From an uncultured Candidatus Nemicrothrix sp. (GTDB taxonomy: Bacteria; Actinomycetota; Acidimicrobiia; Acidimicrobiales; Acidimicrobilacustridaceae): 10,845 bases of DNA. Of the stretch, positions 1,869-6,537 are shown piece by piece (positions within the stretch are counted from its first letter, which is position 1; the number at the start of each line of letters is the position of its first letter). Under the pieces are notes generated by a model. That model ran no database searches. It was given only the letters and a program-made list of their open reading frames with translations, and was not told the DNA's origin. The stretch spans positions 1-10,845 of the forward strand of contig CAIKHC010000294.1 of NCBI GenBank assembly GCA_903827085.1, given 5' to 3'. A program made the translations under genes and the position numbers.

Positions 1869-1874
1869 CTCCTC
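1869..1874 (-). promoter_or_regulatory. Ribosome binding site of the alkB-like gene, overlapping the ligase stop codon
   Basis: The minus strand reads TGAGGAGAGATG: the ligase's TGA stop is embedded in the GAGGAG that serves the AlkB ATG. This arrangement suggests translational coupling and supports the ATG at 1866 as the start. Confidence 0.6.
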
Positions 1875-3384
1875 AACCCTCTTGCGTTTGGGTTGCGCGC
1901 AGAACGGCCTCGCGAACTTTGTCTTTTTGAATCTTCCCCATTGGGTTTCGCTCAATCGCCTCGATGACCACGACTTGTTCCGGGCATTTGTACTTCGCCA
2001 ATCCCAATTCAATGCAGTGAGCCGCCAACGTTGGAACATCAATTGTTGATCCTGGAGTCAACACGATTGCGGCACACACTCGCTCGCCGGTACGCGAATC
2101 CGGAAGGCCAATGACGGCAACATCAGCCACCGAACCGTGGAACAGCACTGCTTCTTCAACCTCGGTTGCAGAAATGTTTTCTGCATTTCGGATTACGACG
2201 TCCTTGAGTCGGCCAACGATTCGAATTCGATCGTCAGGACCAATTTCAGCGAGATCACCAGTTCGGAACCATCCATCGTCGGTAAACGCTGCAGCATTCA
2301 GAGATTCATCGACATAACCGAGAAAGCATTGGGTGCCCCTCAACTGAAGCTCACCGTCAATGACTCGGGCTTCGACACCGGGACCAGCGGGACCAACGTC
2401 GCGACCTACGTCAGGGCCGTCGAACCATTCACAGGTGCAATTTGGGAACTCGGTCAGCCCATAAGCGCCGACAACGCCCGCAACTCCAAACGTGTCAATG
2501 AGTTCTTGGTTCACTTCGCCCGGAATGGGTGCACCGCCGCCAACACAACCGCGTACATTCGAAAGCAACAGACCATCAGTTCGGTGTTCCGCATCGAGGA
2601 ACGCTCGAAAGAACGGAACAGCAGAGCCCAACATTGTTGGCCCATGCGTCGCCATGCGGTCGGCCGTCGTAGCGGGATCAAACACATCGAACAACACGAG
2701 ACGAACACCGGTGTTCAGCGAGGTCACCAACATCGCGATTCCGCCGATATGGGTAAACGGCCATGCGATCGGGTACACGTCTTCGGGACCAAACCCGAGA
2801 CGTTCGGAAAGCGATGCCCCCGAAGCGATCGCCCCAATGTCGTTATGGCGAACTCCCTTGGGCGCAGCCGTCGTTCCGGAAGAGAAATAGATCCAGCGAC
2901 AGTCGTCATTCGTTACTGGCGGCGCCGGAAGCTGTGAAACATCACCCGAAGGCAACCGCAATGCAGTTGAAGCAGTAACCGGCGCTTCGTACTCCGCCGA
3001 CCACGACCGGATTCCGAGGTCTTTGGCCATTACCGCATGGTCGAATCCACGCCAGTGCTTCGGAATGATGAGCAGGTTGGTTCGAATCTGTCCTGCAATA
3101 TGACCAACTTCAGCGTGGCGAAGCATCGGGATGATCGGATTCTGAATAGCGCCAAGTCGAGCGCAAGCCGCCAGCATCACGATCGATTCCAGCGTGGTGG
3201 GCAGTTGCCACGACACGATCGAACCTGGCCCGATGCCGAGTTCAAACAAACCGGCTGCCACTGACTCGGCCTCAACTCGCAGCTGCAATGAGGTCAGGGA
3301 ACGCCCGTAATCGTCAACAGCGACAACACGGTTCGGATGCTCATCCGCTACCGATGTCACTAGGCCCCAAAATGTCTCTTGCAT
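1873..3384 (-). CDS. AMP-forming acyl-CoA ligase (ANL superfamily, cyclohexanecarboxylate-CoA ligase-like)
   Basis: A 503-residue adenylating enzyme that activates a carboxylic acid as acyl-AMP and transfers it to CoA. Counting from the ATG at 3384: the P-loop-like A3 motif FSSGTTAAPKG (167-177), where the usual second glycine is alanine; A5 GAYGLTE (306-312); A7 TGDL (375-378); the hinge and A8 region GRLKDVVIRNAENIS (391-405); and A10 NPMGKIQK with catalytic lysine K484. The N-terminal half (VSWQLPTTLES, LGAIQNPIIPMLR) resembles ligases annotated for cyclohexanecarboxylate or related cyclic and medium-chain acids; the true acid is unknown. No convincing Shine-Dalgarno precedes any start. 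A TTG at 3414 would add ten residues with family-like sequence and is a real alternative. The open frame extends to an ATG at 3615, but that would overlap the divergent gene and looks unlike the family. It is co-transcribed with the downstream alkB-like gene. Confidence 0.92.
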   Translation of the reverse strand: MQETFWGLVTSVADEHPNRVVAVDDYGRSLTSLQLRVEAESVAAGLFELGIGPGSIVSWQLPTTLESIVMLAACARLGAIQNPIIPMLRHAEVGHIAGQIRTNLLIIPKHWRGFDHAVMAKDLGIRSWSAEYEAPVTASTALRLPSGDVSQLPAPPVTNDDCRWIYFSSGTTAAPKGVRHNDIGAIASGASLSERLGFGPEDVYPIAWPFTHIGGIAMLVTSLNTGVRLVLFDVFDPATTADRMATHGPTMLGSAVPFFRAFLDAEHRTDGLLLSNVRGCVGGGAPIPGEVNQELIDTFGVAGVVGAYGLTEFPNCTCEWFDGPDVGRDVGPAGPGVEARVIDGELQLRGTQCFLGYVDESLNAAAFTDDGWFRTGDLAEIGPDDRIRIVGRLKDVVIRNAENISATEVEEAVLFHGSVADVAVIGLPDSRTGERVCAAIVLTPGSTIDVPTLAAHCIELGLAKYKCPEQVVVIEAIERNPMGKIQKDKVREAVLRATQTQEG

Positions 3385-3425
3385 TCGTTCAGATTGCCAT
3401 GCCCAGTCGCTCAACTCACAAGAAT

Positions 3426-3479
3426 CCGGCAGATGGCACGTTGAAGAAACTTTCACCTTTAGTACCAAGCCTCTGCCGG
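3426..3479. promoter_or_regulatory. Inverted repeat in the divergent promoter region
   Basis: CCGGCAGA (3426-3433) and TCTGCCGG (3472-3479) are exact 8-bp reverse complements separated by 38 bases. They sit inside the 129-base spacer between the divergently transcribed ligase and tri-domain genes. Such spaced half-sites can bind a regulator or flank divergent promoters. I could not identify convincing -35/-10 pairs, and an 8-bp match in a spacer this size is not very improbable, so the regulatory role is inference. Confidence 0.3.
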
Positions 3480-3503
3480 GATAAGTTCCCCGCACCCCTT
3501 TCC

Positions 3504-3507
3504 GGAG
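3504..3507 (+). promoter_or_regulatory. Ribosome binding site of the tri-domain gene
   Basis: GGAG six bases before the ATG at 3514. Spacing is ideal, and it settles the start at the first ATG of the hydroxylase domain. Confidence 0.65.
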
Positions 3508-3513
3508 AATCAC

Positions 3514-6500
3514 ATGCGCCTTGACCACCCGATCGTCCGATTGCCCATAAGCACAGACATCAACGCCCTCATCGCCGAGGTCAGCGCAATTGCCGAAGAT
3601 GTTTGGCGCCCGCATCCAGAAGGTATGCCCGGAAACAGCGCTCTTCCATTGGTGTCAGTTATGGGCGATCCCAACAATGATTCCGTTGTGGGACCGATGC
3701 GACCCACGCCTCACCTCGAGGCATTGCCATCGATCGTGAACGTCATGGCAGGACTTACCGGACTTGGTTGCCCGATCGGTCGCGCCCGTTTGATGCGTAT
3801 CGACATCGAGTCCGAAGTGAAGTCGCATGTGGACACCAACCGATATTGGTGGGACCACCTCCGCGTTCACGTTCCGATCATCACCAACCCTGCAGTGCTC
3901 TTTCATGTCGACGACGAATCCATTCATATGGAACCAGGCTCGTGCTGGGTGTTTGATACATGGGAACCACACCGAGTCGAAAACCCCGTCAACGCGCCGC
4001 GCATTCATCTCGTCATCGACACCGTTGGCGGTGCAGGGTTCTGGTCACTCATCGACCGCCAAACGGGTGCGGCTGACGCCAACACACCGCTGCCCCAGGT
4101 GCAGCAAGTCACATCTATCGCGTTCGAAACGATGAACCAACCGACCGTCATGCCTTCGGCCGAAATCGACCAAACGCTGGCAAATATCCTTCATCAGTTC
4201 GCAGAGGTCGATCTTGATCGCGCTGTTGAACTCGACCGTGCGCTCATTGCATTCCGACGCTCGTGGAAAGCGTGCTGGGCCCACTTTGGCGACAACCCTC
4301 AGGGATTCGACTCCTACGCAAAACTTCGCGATGAAGCCGATGCCATCGTTGATCCCTATCCCGAAGCACTTCCCAACACCGTTCAGGTCAACGAAGCAAT
4401 CCGCCAACTTGTGCTGCGCCCTTCAATCGCACAACCCGGTGCCGTTGCTGCACCGAGCGGTATGGGTACTGCCCCTGCCGCCGCACCCGGGGGTGCACCC
4501 GCGCCCGCTGCTGCACCGGCTCCCCCAGCTCCTGCAATGCCAGCGCCGAAACAAATCGGCGAACCGATCACCCTCGATCGCCCTGTATTCATCATTTCGT
4601 CCCCGCGGTCGGGCAGCACGATGTTGTTCGAAGCGATGATGCGCGCCAAAGAGTCCTACACAATCGGCGGCGAAAGCCATCAACTCATCGAGGCATTCCC
4701 CGCGCTCGCACCCGCGTCTCATGGTTGGGACTCAAACCGTCTCACCGAAGAAGACATCACTCCTGAGGTAGTTGAAAAGCTCAGCGGCTCATTTGTTCGA
4801 CGACTGAAGAATCGCGACGGCGAACCGGTGCAGCCGGGATCAGTCGTACGCATGATCGAAAAGACGCCGAAGAACTCTCTGCGGATTCCTTTTCTTGCGG
4901 CCGCATACCCCGATGCAAAGTTCATCTACTTGTGGCGTGATCCTCGCGAAACGATTAGCAGCATGCTCGACGCATGGCGATCGGGTCGTTTCGTGACCTA
5001 CCCAGAACTTCCTGAGTGGACTGGCGATCGCTGGTCGCTGCTCCTTACTCCAGGTTGGCGTGACCTCATTGGCAAGTCGTTACCCGAAGTTGTTGCGAAC
5101 CAGTGGGTGACCGCTACGACAACGTTGCTTGACGATCTTGAAGCGCTAGAACCCGATCGTTGGTGTGTCACGAGTTACTCCGCGCTGCTGGCTGATCCCG
5201 ATGCAGAACTCGCACGTCTCTGCGCCAATCTTGATCTCACATGGGACACCGAGACTGGTGGCGAACTTCCACTCTCGGCAACAACACTCGAAGCTCCGCA
5301 GGCCTCAAAGTGGGAACGCAACGCTGAAGAGATGAAGAAGGTCTGGGACATCGTCGATCCCGTTGCGGTTCGTGCTCACGATGTTTTCGCCGACCCGCCC
5401 CCCATCCAGCCTTCAAAAACCCGTTCGGCCGAAGCCGTCAAGGTTGGGCTCACTGAAGAACCCGATGGCGCCATCCCCACCGATTTCTCGAGTGTGTTCA
5501 CTGGTTCATTCGCCAGCATTCTCGAAGCCGCGAATTGTTCTCTCGCAGTTACCACCTACCAGAGCGGCCGTCTTGTTCTCGTTCGGCGCGACGGCGACAA
5601 GGTCAACACGCACCTTCGCTACTTCCCAAGCCCGATGGGTGTTGCCGTGCAAGGAGCGAAGTTGGCGCTGGGCACCAAGACAACCGTGTGGGAATTCTGG
5701 AATCAACAAGCTGCCGCTTCCACGATTGACCCCGAAGGCCGCATCGACGCTTGCTACATGCCTCGCCGCGGTCACACCACCGGCGACATTCGTATCCACG
5801 ATCTTGGCTACGACGCCGACGGAGAACTTTGGGCCGTCGCCACACGCTTTTCTTGCTTGGTGAAGTTCGATCGCGAAAACTCGTTCGCTCCGCAGTGGCG
5901 CCCGCAATTCATTTCCGGCCTCTCTGCCGACGATCGCTGCCACCTCAATGGCTTGGCAATGGTCGAAGGACGCCCGAAGTACGTCACCGTTCTCGGCATG
6001 ACCGACACGCCCAACGGTTGGCGCGAGGACAAGGCCGCAGGTGGCGCAATTCTCGACATCGAAGGTGGCGCTCCAATCACCGTCGGTCTTTCAATGCCTC
6101 ACTCGCCCCGCTGGCATAACAACAAGTTGTGGGTCCTTGAGTCGGGTCGTGGTGCGTTGTGCACTGTCGACATCGAAACCGGTGAACGCGAAACCATTGC
6201 CATTCTCCCCGGCTTCACCCGCGGCCTTTCGTTCGTCGGAAACATCGCGTTCATCGGTCTCTCGAAAGTTCGCGAGACGGTGTTCGACGGGCTCCCGATC
6301 ACTCAGGCAGACACACCACGCGAGTGCGGCGTCTGGGCCGTCGACATCAACACCGGCGAGGTCGTCGGTTTCATGCGCTTCGAAGGATCAGTTACCGAAC
6401 TCTTCGAAGTTGCAGTCCTACCCGGCACGCAATGGCCGGAACTTGTGGAGCCAGGCGCGGAAGCCACGAACGACGCGTTCGTTCTTTCCGATGAAGCACT

Positions 6501-6537
6501 GAAAGATGTCATTCATCCCGCCAAGAAAGCGGACTAG
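3514..6537 (+). CDS. Tri-domain fusion: Fe/2OG hydroxylase (Asp/Asn or cis-Pro hydroxylase type) + PAPS sulfotransferase + TIGR03032/DUF4915 domain
   Basis: One uninterrupted 1007-residue frame holds three recognisable parts. Residues 1-300: a double-stranded beta-helix hydroxylase with HVD (H105, D107), distal H153 and R163 ten residues later, then RIHLVID, followed by a helical tail (about 215-300) as in bacterial cis-proline hydroxylases. Residues 306-346: an Ala/Pro-rich linker. Residues 356-630: a Sulfotransfer_3-type domain with the phosphosulfate loop SSPRSGST (362-369), EKTPKNS (449-455) and the 3'-phosphate segment LWRDPRETISS (473-483). Residues 657-998: the uncharacterised TIGR03032 (DUF4915) family, with TTYQSGRLVLV, PMGVA, DDRCHLNGLAM, MPHSPRWH and PGFTRGLSF. 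There is no signal peptide or membrane segment, so it should act in the cytoplasm, where 2-oxoglutarate and PAPS are found. Hydroxylation followed by O-sulfonation of the same substrate is a reasonable inference, not shown. No precursor peptide or biosynthetic partner is visible nearby. Transcribed alone, divergent from the ligase. Confidence 0.9.
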   Translation: MRLDHPIVRLPISTDINALIAEVSAIAEDVWRPHPEGMPGNSALPLVSVMGDPNNDSVVGPMRPTPHLEALPSIVNVMAGLTGLGCPIGRARLMRIDIESEVKSHVDTNRYWWDHLRVHVPIITNPAVLFHVDDESIHMEPGSCWVFDTWEPHRVENPVNAPRIHLVIDTVGGAGFWSLIDRQTGAADANTPLPQVQQVTSIAFETMNQPTVMPSAEIDQTLANILHQFAEVDLDRAVELDRALIAFRRSWKACWAHFGDNPQGFDSYAKLRDEADAIVDPYPEALPNTVQVNEAIRQLVLRPSIAQPGAVAAPSGMGTAPAAAPGGAPAPAAAPAPPAPAMPAPKQIGEPITLDRPVFIISSPRSGSTMLFEAMMRAKESYTIGGESHQLIEAFPALAPASHGWDSNRLTEEDITPEVVEKLSGSFVRRLKNRDGEPVQPGSVVRMIEKTPKNSLRIPFLAAAYPDAKFIYLWRDPRETISSMLDAWRSGRFVTYPELPEWTGDRWSLLLTPGWRDLIGKSLPEVVANQWVTATTTLLDDLEALEPDRWCVTSYSALLADPDAELARLCANLDLTWDTETGGELPLSATTLEAPQASKWERNAEEMKKVWDIVDPVAVRAHDVFADPPPIQPSKTRSAEAVKVGLTEEPDGAIPTDFSSVFTGSFASILEAANCSLAVTTYQSGRLVLVRRDGDKVNTHLRYFPSPMGVAVQGAKLALGTKTTVWEFWNQQAAASTIDPEGRIDACYMPRRGHTTGDIRIHDLGYDADGELWAVATRFSCLVKFDRENSFAPQWRPQFISGLSADDRCHLNGLAMVEGRPKYVTVLGMTDTPNGWREDKAAGGAILDIEGGAPITVGLSMPHSPRWHNNKLWVLESGRGALCTVDIETGERETIAILPGFTRGLSFVGNIAFIGLSKVRETVFDGLPITQADTPRECGVWAVDINTGEVVGFMRFEGSVTELFEVAVLPGTQWPELVEPGAEATNDAFVLSDEALKDVIHPAKKAD

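Follow-up and report, generated by a model that had tools for sequence, protein, structure and literature searches.

A hydroxylase–sulfotransferase–TIGR03032 protein of an uncultured Acidimicrobiia bacterium as a candidate modifier of exported repeat proteins

The window, a stretch of 10,845 nucleotides from an uncultured Candidatus Nemicrothrix sp. (contig CAIKHC010000294.1), carries a gene that joins a hydroxylase, a sulfotransferase, and a TIGR03032/DUF4915 domain (hereafter T32) in a single uninterrupted frame (1007 codons and a stop; Table 1). In profile searches with the window protein, PF05118 scores 55.4 bits (cut-off 22.6), PF13469 89.5 bits (cut-off 27), PF16261 410 bits over residues 665–977 (cut-off 35), and the NCBIfam profile TIGR03032 401 bits (cut-off 251.5). 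No glycosyltransferase family and no domain of the bacterial autotransporter heptosyltransferases (BAHT) was found in these Pfam and NCBIfam scans, and no signal peptide is evident. The structured part of the hydroxylase extends to about residue 304 according to predicted secondary structure, with proline cis-4-hydroxylase (4p7w) as its fold match; R163 is presumably the anchor of the 2-oxoglutarate carboxylate. The sulfotransferase aligns over ~130 residues (E about 1e-6) with the tyrosylprotein sulfotransferases, which are its nearest solved relatives by sequence. In the full-length structure model, residues 588–593 fall below a predicted local distance difference test score (pLDDT) of 50, as do both linkers, and the relative placement of the domains is unsure (predicted template modeling score 0.48). 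The initial annotation, made from the letters alone, had described the uninterrupted frame, the three iron ligands, a loop for binding 3'-phosphoadenosine 5'-phosphosulfate (PAPS), a complete T32, and flexible linkers, all of which are borne out here.

Table 1. Coordinates of the three-domain gene and of its features in the window
Feature	Position	Strand	Basis
Three-domain gene, hydroxylase–sulfotransferase–TIGR03032, 1007 aa	3514..6537	+	frame, Pfam, NCBIfam, full-length homologues
PF05118 hydroxylase domain, residues 67–170	3712..4023	+	Pfam; fold match; secondary structure
H105-x-D107 iron ligands	3826..3834	+	conservation
H153, third iron ligand	3970..3972	+	conservation
R163	4000..4002	+	conservation
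Ala/Pro-rich flexible linker, residues 312–343	4447..4542	+	pLDDT <50
PF13469 sulfotransferase domain, residues 357–578	4582..5247	+	Pfam; part-length match to tyrosylprotein sulfotransferases
PAPS-binding loop SSPRSGST, residues 362–369	4597..4620	+	sequence, alignment
Second linker, residues 650–656	5461..5481	+	pLDDT <50
TIGR03032/DUF4915 domain, predicted six-bladed β-propeller, residues 663–988	5500..6477	+	NCBIfam, structure prediction, fold matches
Span of conserved H762, H810, H863, R903, E962	5797..6399	+	conservation; secondary structure

The three-domain architecture recurs widely. Of the 7991 sequences scored by phmmer, 784 are homologues at E 1e-3; 118 of the 120 matches listed contain all three Pfam domains, the other two being short proteins, and the three-domain homologues among them range down to 47% identity. 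Since they lie on many contigs, an assembly join is ruled out, and the suspicion that the architecture might occur nowhere else proved false. A chance frame is ruled out by profile scores above the cut-offs together with conserved residues. The T32 part matches at least 6336 database proteins at E 1e-3. H105, D107, H153, and R163 are invariant in all 119 proteins longer than 900 residues (window protein included). Among the locus sequences, H153 and R163 occur in 43/43 and H105 and D107 in 42/43, the remaining one being truncated there. P364 and R365 of the PAPS loop are kept in 41/46, with one differing residue (L069) and four gaps, which are cut or split copies plus L047, whose loop is not alignable. 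Within T32, H762, R808, H810, R837, and H863 are present in 53/53, R903 and E962 in 52/53 (the remaining one a gap), and H700 in 46/53. As judged from this residue conservation, it is not the case that one catalytic domain is inactive in all relatives. The closest relative copy (L002, 96% identical) contains an in-frame stop at 11429–11431 within the sulfotransferase domain, either an assembly error or a pseudogene. In a sulfotransferase–TIGR03032 protein of Nocardioides lijunqiniae (L069, 10001–11713), the PAPS loop is degenerate and T32 differs at 1 of the 11 sites checked. Two records titled Bifidobacterium breve (L006 and L007, 96–98% identical to the window protein) and one titled Klebsiella pneumoniae (L041) are apparently environmental sequence, and their titles look wrong.

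The arrangement of the domains was compared over 79 genome loci, which had been selected with sulfotransferase and T32 peptides from a capped list (the best 80 retained), with a domain called above 80 bits. Eleven loci are three-domain, 29 hydroxylase–sulfotransferase, four sulfotransferase–T32 (two of them cut by the contig end), and 35 have T32 without the other two. All 40 loci with a hydroxylase also carry a sulfotransferase; only the 11 among the 50 T32 loci test this pairing fairly, because the selection itself used sulfotransferase or T32 peptides. In 11/11 of these the sulfotransferase is present, which fits a joint action of both enzymes and is silent on its order. Of the initial proposal that the protein hydroxylates a substrate and then sulfonates the new hydroxyl, the conserved unit, its active-site residues, and the pairing hold, and the order is not given by the pairing. 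A split version exists in Diaphorobacter, where a hydroxylase–sulfotransferase gene overlaps a T32 gene by four bases and stands between it and the gene of an IPTL-CTERM choice-of-anchor-Q protein; separate neighboring genes, which the initial annotation had advised searching for, thus occur. In the T32 tree, the fusion label changes at least four times on well-supported branches (split and contig-cut copies scored as fused), and fusion or fission therefore probably happened repeatedly.

T32 is also fused to other enzymes. It is joined to TPR and GT41 in L112 and L115, to GNAT acetyltransferases in L111 and L119, and to TPR in L037, L057, and L107, where a short GT9-like match barely exceeds the cut-off, and in L036, where TPR is the only partner; the link to heptosyltransferase-like partners is weak. 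Among long T32 proteins (~1040–3311 aa), GT41 was counted by eye in 115 of the 120 matches listed (223 found), in a search that scored only the T32 part of a query itself carrying GT41. The other five combine T32 with GNAT (P0269), GT2 (P0302), TPR and a sulfotransferase (P0320), TPR only (P0324), or a hydroxylase and a sulfotransferase (P0359).

T32 genes show a strong genomic link to exported proteins, herein called clients. Reading of the loci revealed large exported-looking proteins adjoining T32, which comprise choice-of-anchor-Q/CSLREA β-helix, FG-GAP, and ELWxxDGT proteins. Choice-of-anchor-Q proteins were scored with NF041518, the counts resting on tblastn, profiles, and annotated records. 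Proximity was assessed in 40 of 42 T32 genomes, G011 being excluded for 116 matches flooding its list and G023 for a T32 at the contig end. A choice-of-anchor-Q match lies within 5 kb of 19/61 T32 places scoring over the cut-off, compared with 0.88 expected from random placement (P about 5e-22), and by genome this holds for 18/40 against 0.87 expected. The exact P is too small because some genomes are close relatives; several phyla are nevertheless involved. Anywhere in the genome, a choice-of-anchor-Q protein over the cut-off occurs in 37 of the 42 T32 genomes and in none of 14 named control genomes, one of which (Synechococcus elongatus) has T32. In a sample of 198 Acidimicrobiia genomes, T32 exceeds the cut-off in 11 (26 with T32 below it were scored as T32-less) and choice-of-anchor-Q in 45, meaning 11/11 genomes with T32 compared with 34/187 others (Fisher P 2.9e-8, kinship ignored); T32 and client are adjacent in G044, G069, G070, and G161, all with three-domain genes. 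On plasmids (15 PLSDB records with T32, gene tables incomplete, Novosphingobium resinovorum SA1 and HR1a being near-duplicates), T32 directly adjoins the gene of a giant repeat, surface, or autotransporter protein in 10/15, and such a gene lies within two genes of it in 13/15, the wider range adding Diaphorobacter, Nostoc C052, and Loktanella. The exceptions are one Nostoc record, where the end of the record cuts the stretch short, and Qingshengfaniella. The initial annotation had left the substrate as an amino acid, a peptide, or a metabolite; the genomic evidence points to exported proteins rather than to free amino acids or metabolites.

The clients are diverse. With blastp, matches were found within the choice-of-anchor-Q proteins, the cyanobacterial FG-GAP/VCBS/cadherin/Ig proteins, the ELWxxDGT proteins, and the autotransporters; no motif common to all of these groups emerged among the best 40 pairs. 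The cyanobacterial FG-GAP, cadherin-like, and Ig-like neighbors show no obvious Sec signal at their start, and their export is assumed from domain names. Clients of three-domain genes contain 13.8% Thr and 2.4% Tyr compared with 9.3% and 1.7% for those of other T32 genes (9 versus 10 proteins found by regular expression, at least one of which, in L044, is a wrongly called frame). Two choice-of-anchor-Q proteins from two genomes of the class (L081 and L099) share a C-terminal FTG preceded by a similar stretch, which may be a sorting signal. In L037 (6634–16921), a TIGR03032–TPR protein stands amid several tandem β-helix genes with similar N-terminal leader-like regions.

The source genome (G000; 2.06 Mb, 448 contigs, 91% complete) contains one T32, and no choice-of-anchor-Q gene neighbors it in the window. 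It encodes two such proteins with PMP repeats (L081 and L082), neither on the T32 contig. L081 is 61% identical over its C-terminal 75 residues to the client adjoining the three-domain gene of G161 and 36% identical over 470 residues to the Diaphorobacter client.

A rarer linkage connects T32 with the synthesis of PAPS. Adenosine 5'-phosphosulfate (APS) kinase is present in 20/22 T32 genomes, or 19/21 without G240, which is apparently the same assembly as G065. Among the 19 genomes that remain once G240 and the two lacking the kinase are set aside, three (G002, G005, and G203) have it no more than 5 kb from T32, where 0.06 are expected (P 3.5e-5). The G203 locus holds two T32 genes that lack the other domains; they adjoin a Calx-beta protein, a CysN/C-type gene, and a PF01507 gene that we read as a probable CysD.

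Secondary structure places M708, H762, H810, H863, R903, and E962 of T32 at the starts of six strands. In the predicted propeller, these would be the innermost strands of the six blades, with the residues lining the central channel, and this placement of conserved residues suggests that T32 holds a ligand or metal site. T32 itself may be an enzyme, given its frequent occurrence on its own, the diversity of its clients, and the resemblance of its conserved residues to a binding or catalytic center. The predicted fold resembles protein-binding YWTD/NHL propellers, and virginiamycin B lyase and strictosidine synthase each appear among the fold matches listed, in separate searches. No convincing relative of the T32 profile was found among solved chains (best E 0.023); peptidyl-α-hydroxyglycine α-amidating lyase (PAL), SMP-30, and similar propellers were not prominent among the 50 matches listed in each of two fold searches, which is no counter-evidence. 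The initial annotation knew of no function for TIGR03032, and in the open-licence literature no mention of TIGR03032 or DUF4915 was found, which does not imply absence from print overall. For CSLREA, titles and abstract openings in that literature pertain to unrelated work, and at the same depth no relevant paper appeared on a bacterial fusion of a sulfotransferase with an asparaginyl β-hydroxylase or on sulfation or hydroxylation of surface proteins.

Several known systems resemble parts of this protein. Excerpts of two papers describe autotransporter heptosyltransferases as modifying β-helix surface proteins in the cytoplasm, on Ser/Thr mostly in the β-helix loops; the genes of these enzymes either share a transcript with the client or lie at another place in the genome (PMC8151025, PMC4358343). 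These BAHT enzymes (TibC, Aah) thus share with the proposed system a β-helix surface protein modified in the cytoplasm and a client that is sometimes unlinked. They differ in transferring heptose with an iron-finger enzyme, and the excerpts mention no hydroxylase, sulfotransferase, or TIGR03032. By analogy, the window protein may work like a BAHT, though it is not one. HMW1C-type N-glycosyltransferases and GT41 protein O-GlcNAc transferases are alike in glycosylating proteins in the cytosol, and GT41 is itself fused to TIGR03032, mostly in cyanobacteria; they differ in chemistry, the window protein having no glycosyltransferase domain. RaxST and the tyrosylprotein sulfotransferases, the solved relatives named above, sulfate proteins in a PAPS-dependent manner. 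To our knowledge they have no hydroxylase partner, and their clients are a small peptide or eukaryotic. RaxX is described as the sulfated tyrosine peptide of the raxX-raxSTAB cluster (PMC6637879). L-Proline cis-4-hydroxylase and AspH have the PF05118 profile, the fold, and the HxD...H plus Arg residues in common with the window protein. The former acts on free proline and the latter on EGF domains. In peptidylglycine α-amidating monooxygenase (PAM), a hydroxylase is partnered with the six-bladed PAL propeller, which has three central His. The likeness of PAL and other catalytic six-bladed propellers lies in the combination of a hydroxylase with a predicted propeller containing three conserved His; in contrast, no sequence relation of PAL to T32 was found in solved chains.

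We consider it somewhat probable that the window protein works in the cytosol, where it would hydroxylate and sulfonate proteins destined for export, T32 being a client-handling or catalytic module, in analogy to the autotransporter heptosyltransferases. Action in the cytosol before export is proposed because no signal peptide is evident and 2-oxoglutarate and PAPS are used. In this scheme, the hydroxylase would use Fe(II) and 2-oxoglutarate to hydroxylate side chains of an exported protein ahead of its secretion, and the sulfotransferase would transfer sulfonate from PAPS onto the new hydroxyl or another nearby; that both act on one residue we infer from the pairing of the domains. The T32 propeller would confer specificity for clients, presumably choice-of-anchor-Q/CSLREA-type β-helix and related giant repeat proteins, either by binding and handling them while the linked enzyme decorates them or by performing a first reaction at its conserved His/Arg center. 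Both roles that the initial annotation had offered for TIGR03032, binder or further processor, are thereby retained; the change is that the domain is common to other protein-modifying enzymes.

A number of observations weigh against this proposal. T32 and choice-of-anchor-Q lie on separate contigs in 3/3 genomes of the window's genus, 42/61 T32 places have no choice-of-anchor-Q match within 5 kb, and 5/42 T32 genomes have none over the cut-off (G013, G029, G032, and G037 none at all, G024 one below it), as has the Synechococcus elongatus control. Most T32 loci (35/50) contain neither hydroxylase nor sulfotransferase, fused sulfotransferases are sometimes degenerate (L069, and L047 with its unalignable loop), and two-domain hydroxylase–sulfotransferases without T32 sit near TonB receptors instead (annotated in L120). 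The diversity of the clients argues against recognition of a single motif, and the closest PDB relatives of the hydroxylase are free-proline hydroxylases. On a Qingshengfaniella alkalisoli plasmid (L113, 2974–8053), the T32 gene is the last of a series that codes for a glycosyltransferase, an acyltransferase, an acyl carrier protein, an adenylate-forming enzyme, and an SDR; there is no surface-protein gene in the vicinity, and the locus looks biosynthetic. APS kinase was found neither in G000 nor in G187, a 99% complete genome of the same genus, and is present in G065, also of this genus; in G000 this may be an assembly gap, and for the species of G187 the absence is a real objection.

Some of these points would suit a product other than a modified protein. 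The use of free proline by the nearest solved hydroxylases, the likeness of the conserved His/Arg/Glu of T32 to a catalytic propeller, the Qingshengfaniella run, and the CoA-ligase-type and monooxygenase-related genes upstream in the window agree with the synthesis of a free sulfated hydroxy-amino acid or small metabolite, TIGR03032 being a third tailoring enzyme such as a lyase or hydrolase. However, T32 is repeatedly linked to exported repeat proteins in different phyla, the GT41 and TPR partners of T32 are of protein-modifying types, and the sulfotransferase is nearest in sequence, over ~130 residues, to tyrosylprotein sulfotransferases, which renders this synthesis rather improbable. TIGR03032 could also be a chaperone or export factor reserved for giant surface proteins, the enzymes fused to it having some other target. 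T32 without the other two domains is indeed its commonest form, often adjoining clients, and its fold is like that of protein-binding propellers; yet its repeated fusion to different protein-modifying enzymes and its conserved His/Arg cluster make such a factor similarly improbable.

A different question is whether the hydroxylase and the sulfotransferase act on different residues or proteins and are fused only for co-targeting. The pairing data establish no order of action, the placement of the domains in the model is unsure, and sulfotransferase–TIGR03032 proteins without a hydroxylase occur (L069), as do stand-alone hydroxylase relatives adjoining the fused gene (L052, L070) and more distant ones (26–33% identity) on Streptomyces and Azospirillum plasmids. 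Such independence is nevertheless unlikely when set against the 40/40 co-occurrence, with its 11 fairly testable loci, and against an Asticcacaulis gene run that combines a separate Asp/Asn hydroxylase with further sulfotransferases.

Beyond the hydroxylation and sulfonation of clients proposed for the window protein, T32 could tentatively be regarded, at somewhat less than even confidence, as the core common to a large and unrecognized class of cytosolic systems. Each of these would decorate giant proteins bound for export, the chemistry being exchangeable: hydroxylation and sulfonation here, and glycosylation by GT41, acetylation, and perhaps heptosyl transfer elsewhere. In the branch to which the window protein belongs, the product would be sulfated hydroxy-residues on β-helix proteins, and the propeller itself may act first, as a catalytic and possibly metal-dependent enzyme. 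If true, this would be a one-polypeptide bacterial counterpart of the hydroxylation and sulfation of the animal extracellular matrix. A domain family without a named function thereby gains a testable role. The proposal predicts sulfated hydroxy-residues on bacterial exported proteins, a modification not found in the open-licence literature, and enzyme–client pairs are available as adjacent genes in cultured isolates, among them those of Diaphorobacter sp. HDW4B (L105) and of Synechocystis sp. PCC 6714 (L107), where TIGR03032 adjoins a choice-of-anchor-Q gene.

Two of the genes upstream of the three-domain gene are one of CoA-ligase type and one akin to Baeyer–Villiger-type monooxygenases. Together with the CarD, HtpX, LemA, MFS, and AlkB-like neighbors they were rejected as pathway partners; because they recur, in a clustering of the genes at the loci, only in close relatives (L002–L007 and L054), no functional link is claimed for them. 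As called, the CoA-ligase-type open reading frame (window 1873–3615, minus strand) overlaps the start of the three-domain gene. It probably starts further downstream, since the median length in its cluster is about 503 aa and the called frame has 580 aa, and the two genes would then be divergent. Apart from the window, the Asticcacaulis sp. DW145 plasmid (L120, 923–8791) combines a hydroxylase–sulfotransferase without T32, TPR–sulfotransferases, annotated TonB receptors, and a separate Asp/Asn hydroxylase. Similar sets, apart from the separate Asp/Asn hydroxylase, occur in L031, L034, L035, L043, and L049, where the TonB receptors were read from sequence, as if these loci formed a second hydroxylation–sulfation system.

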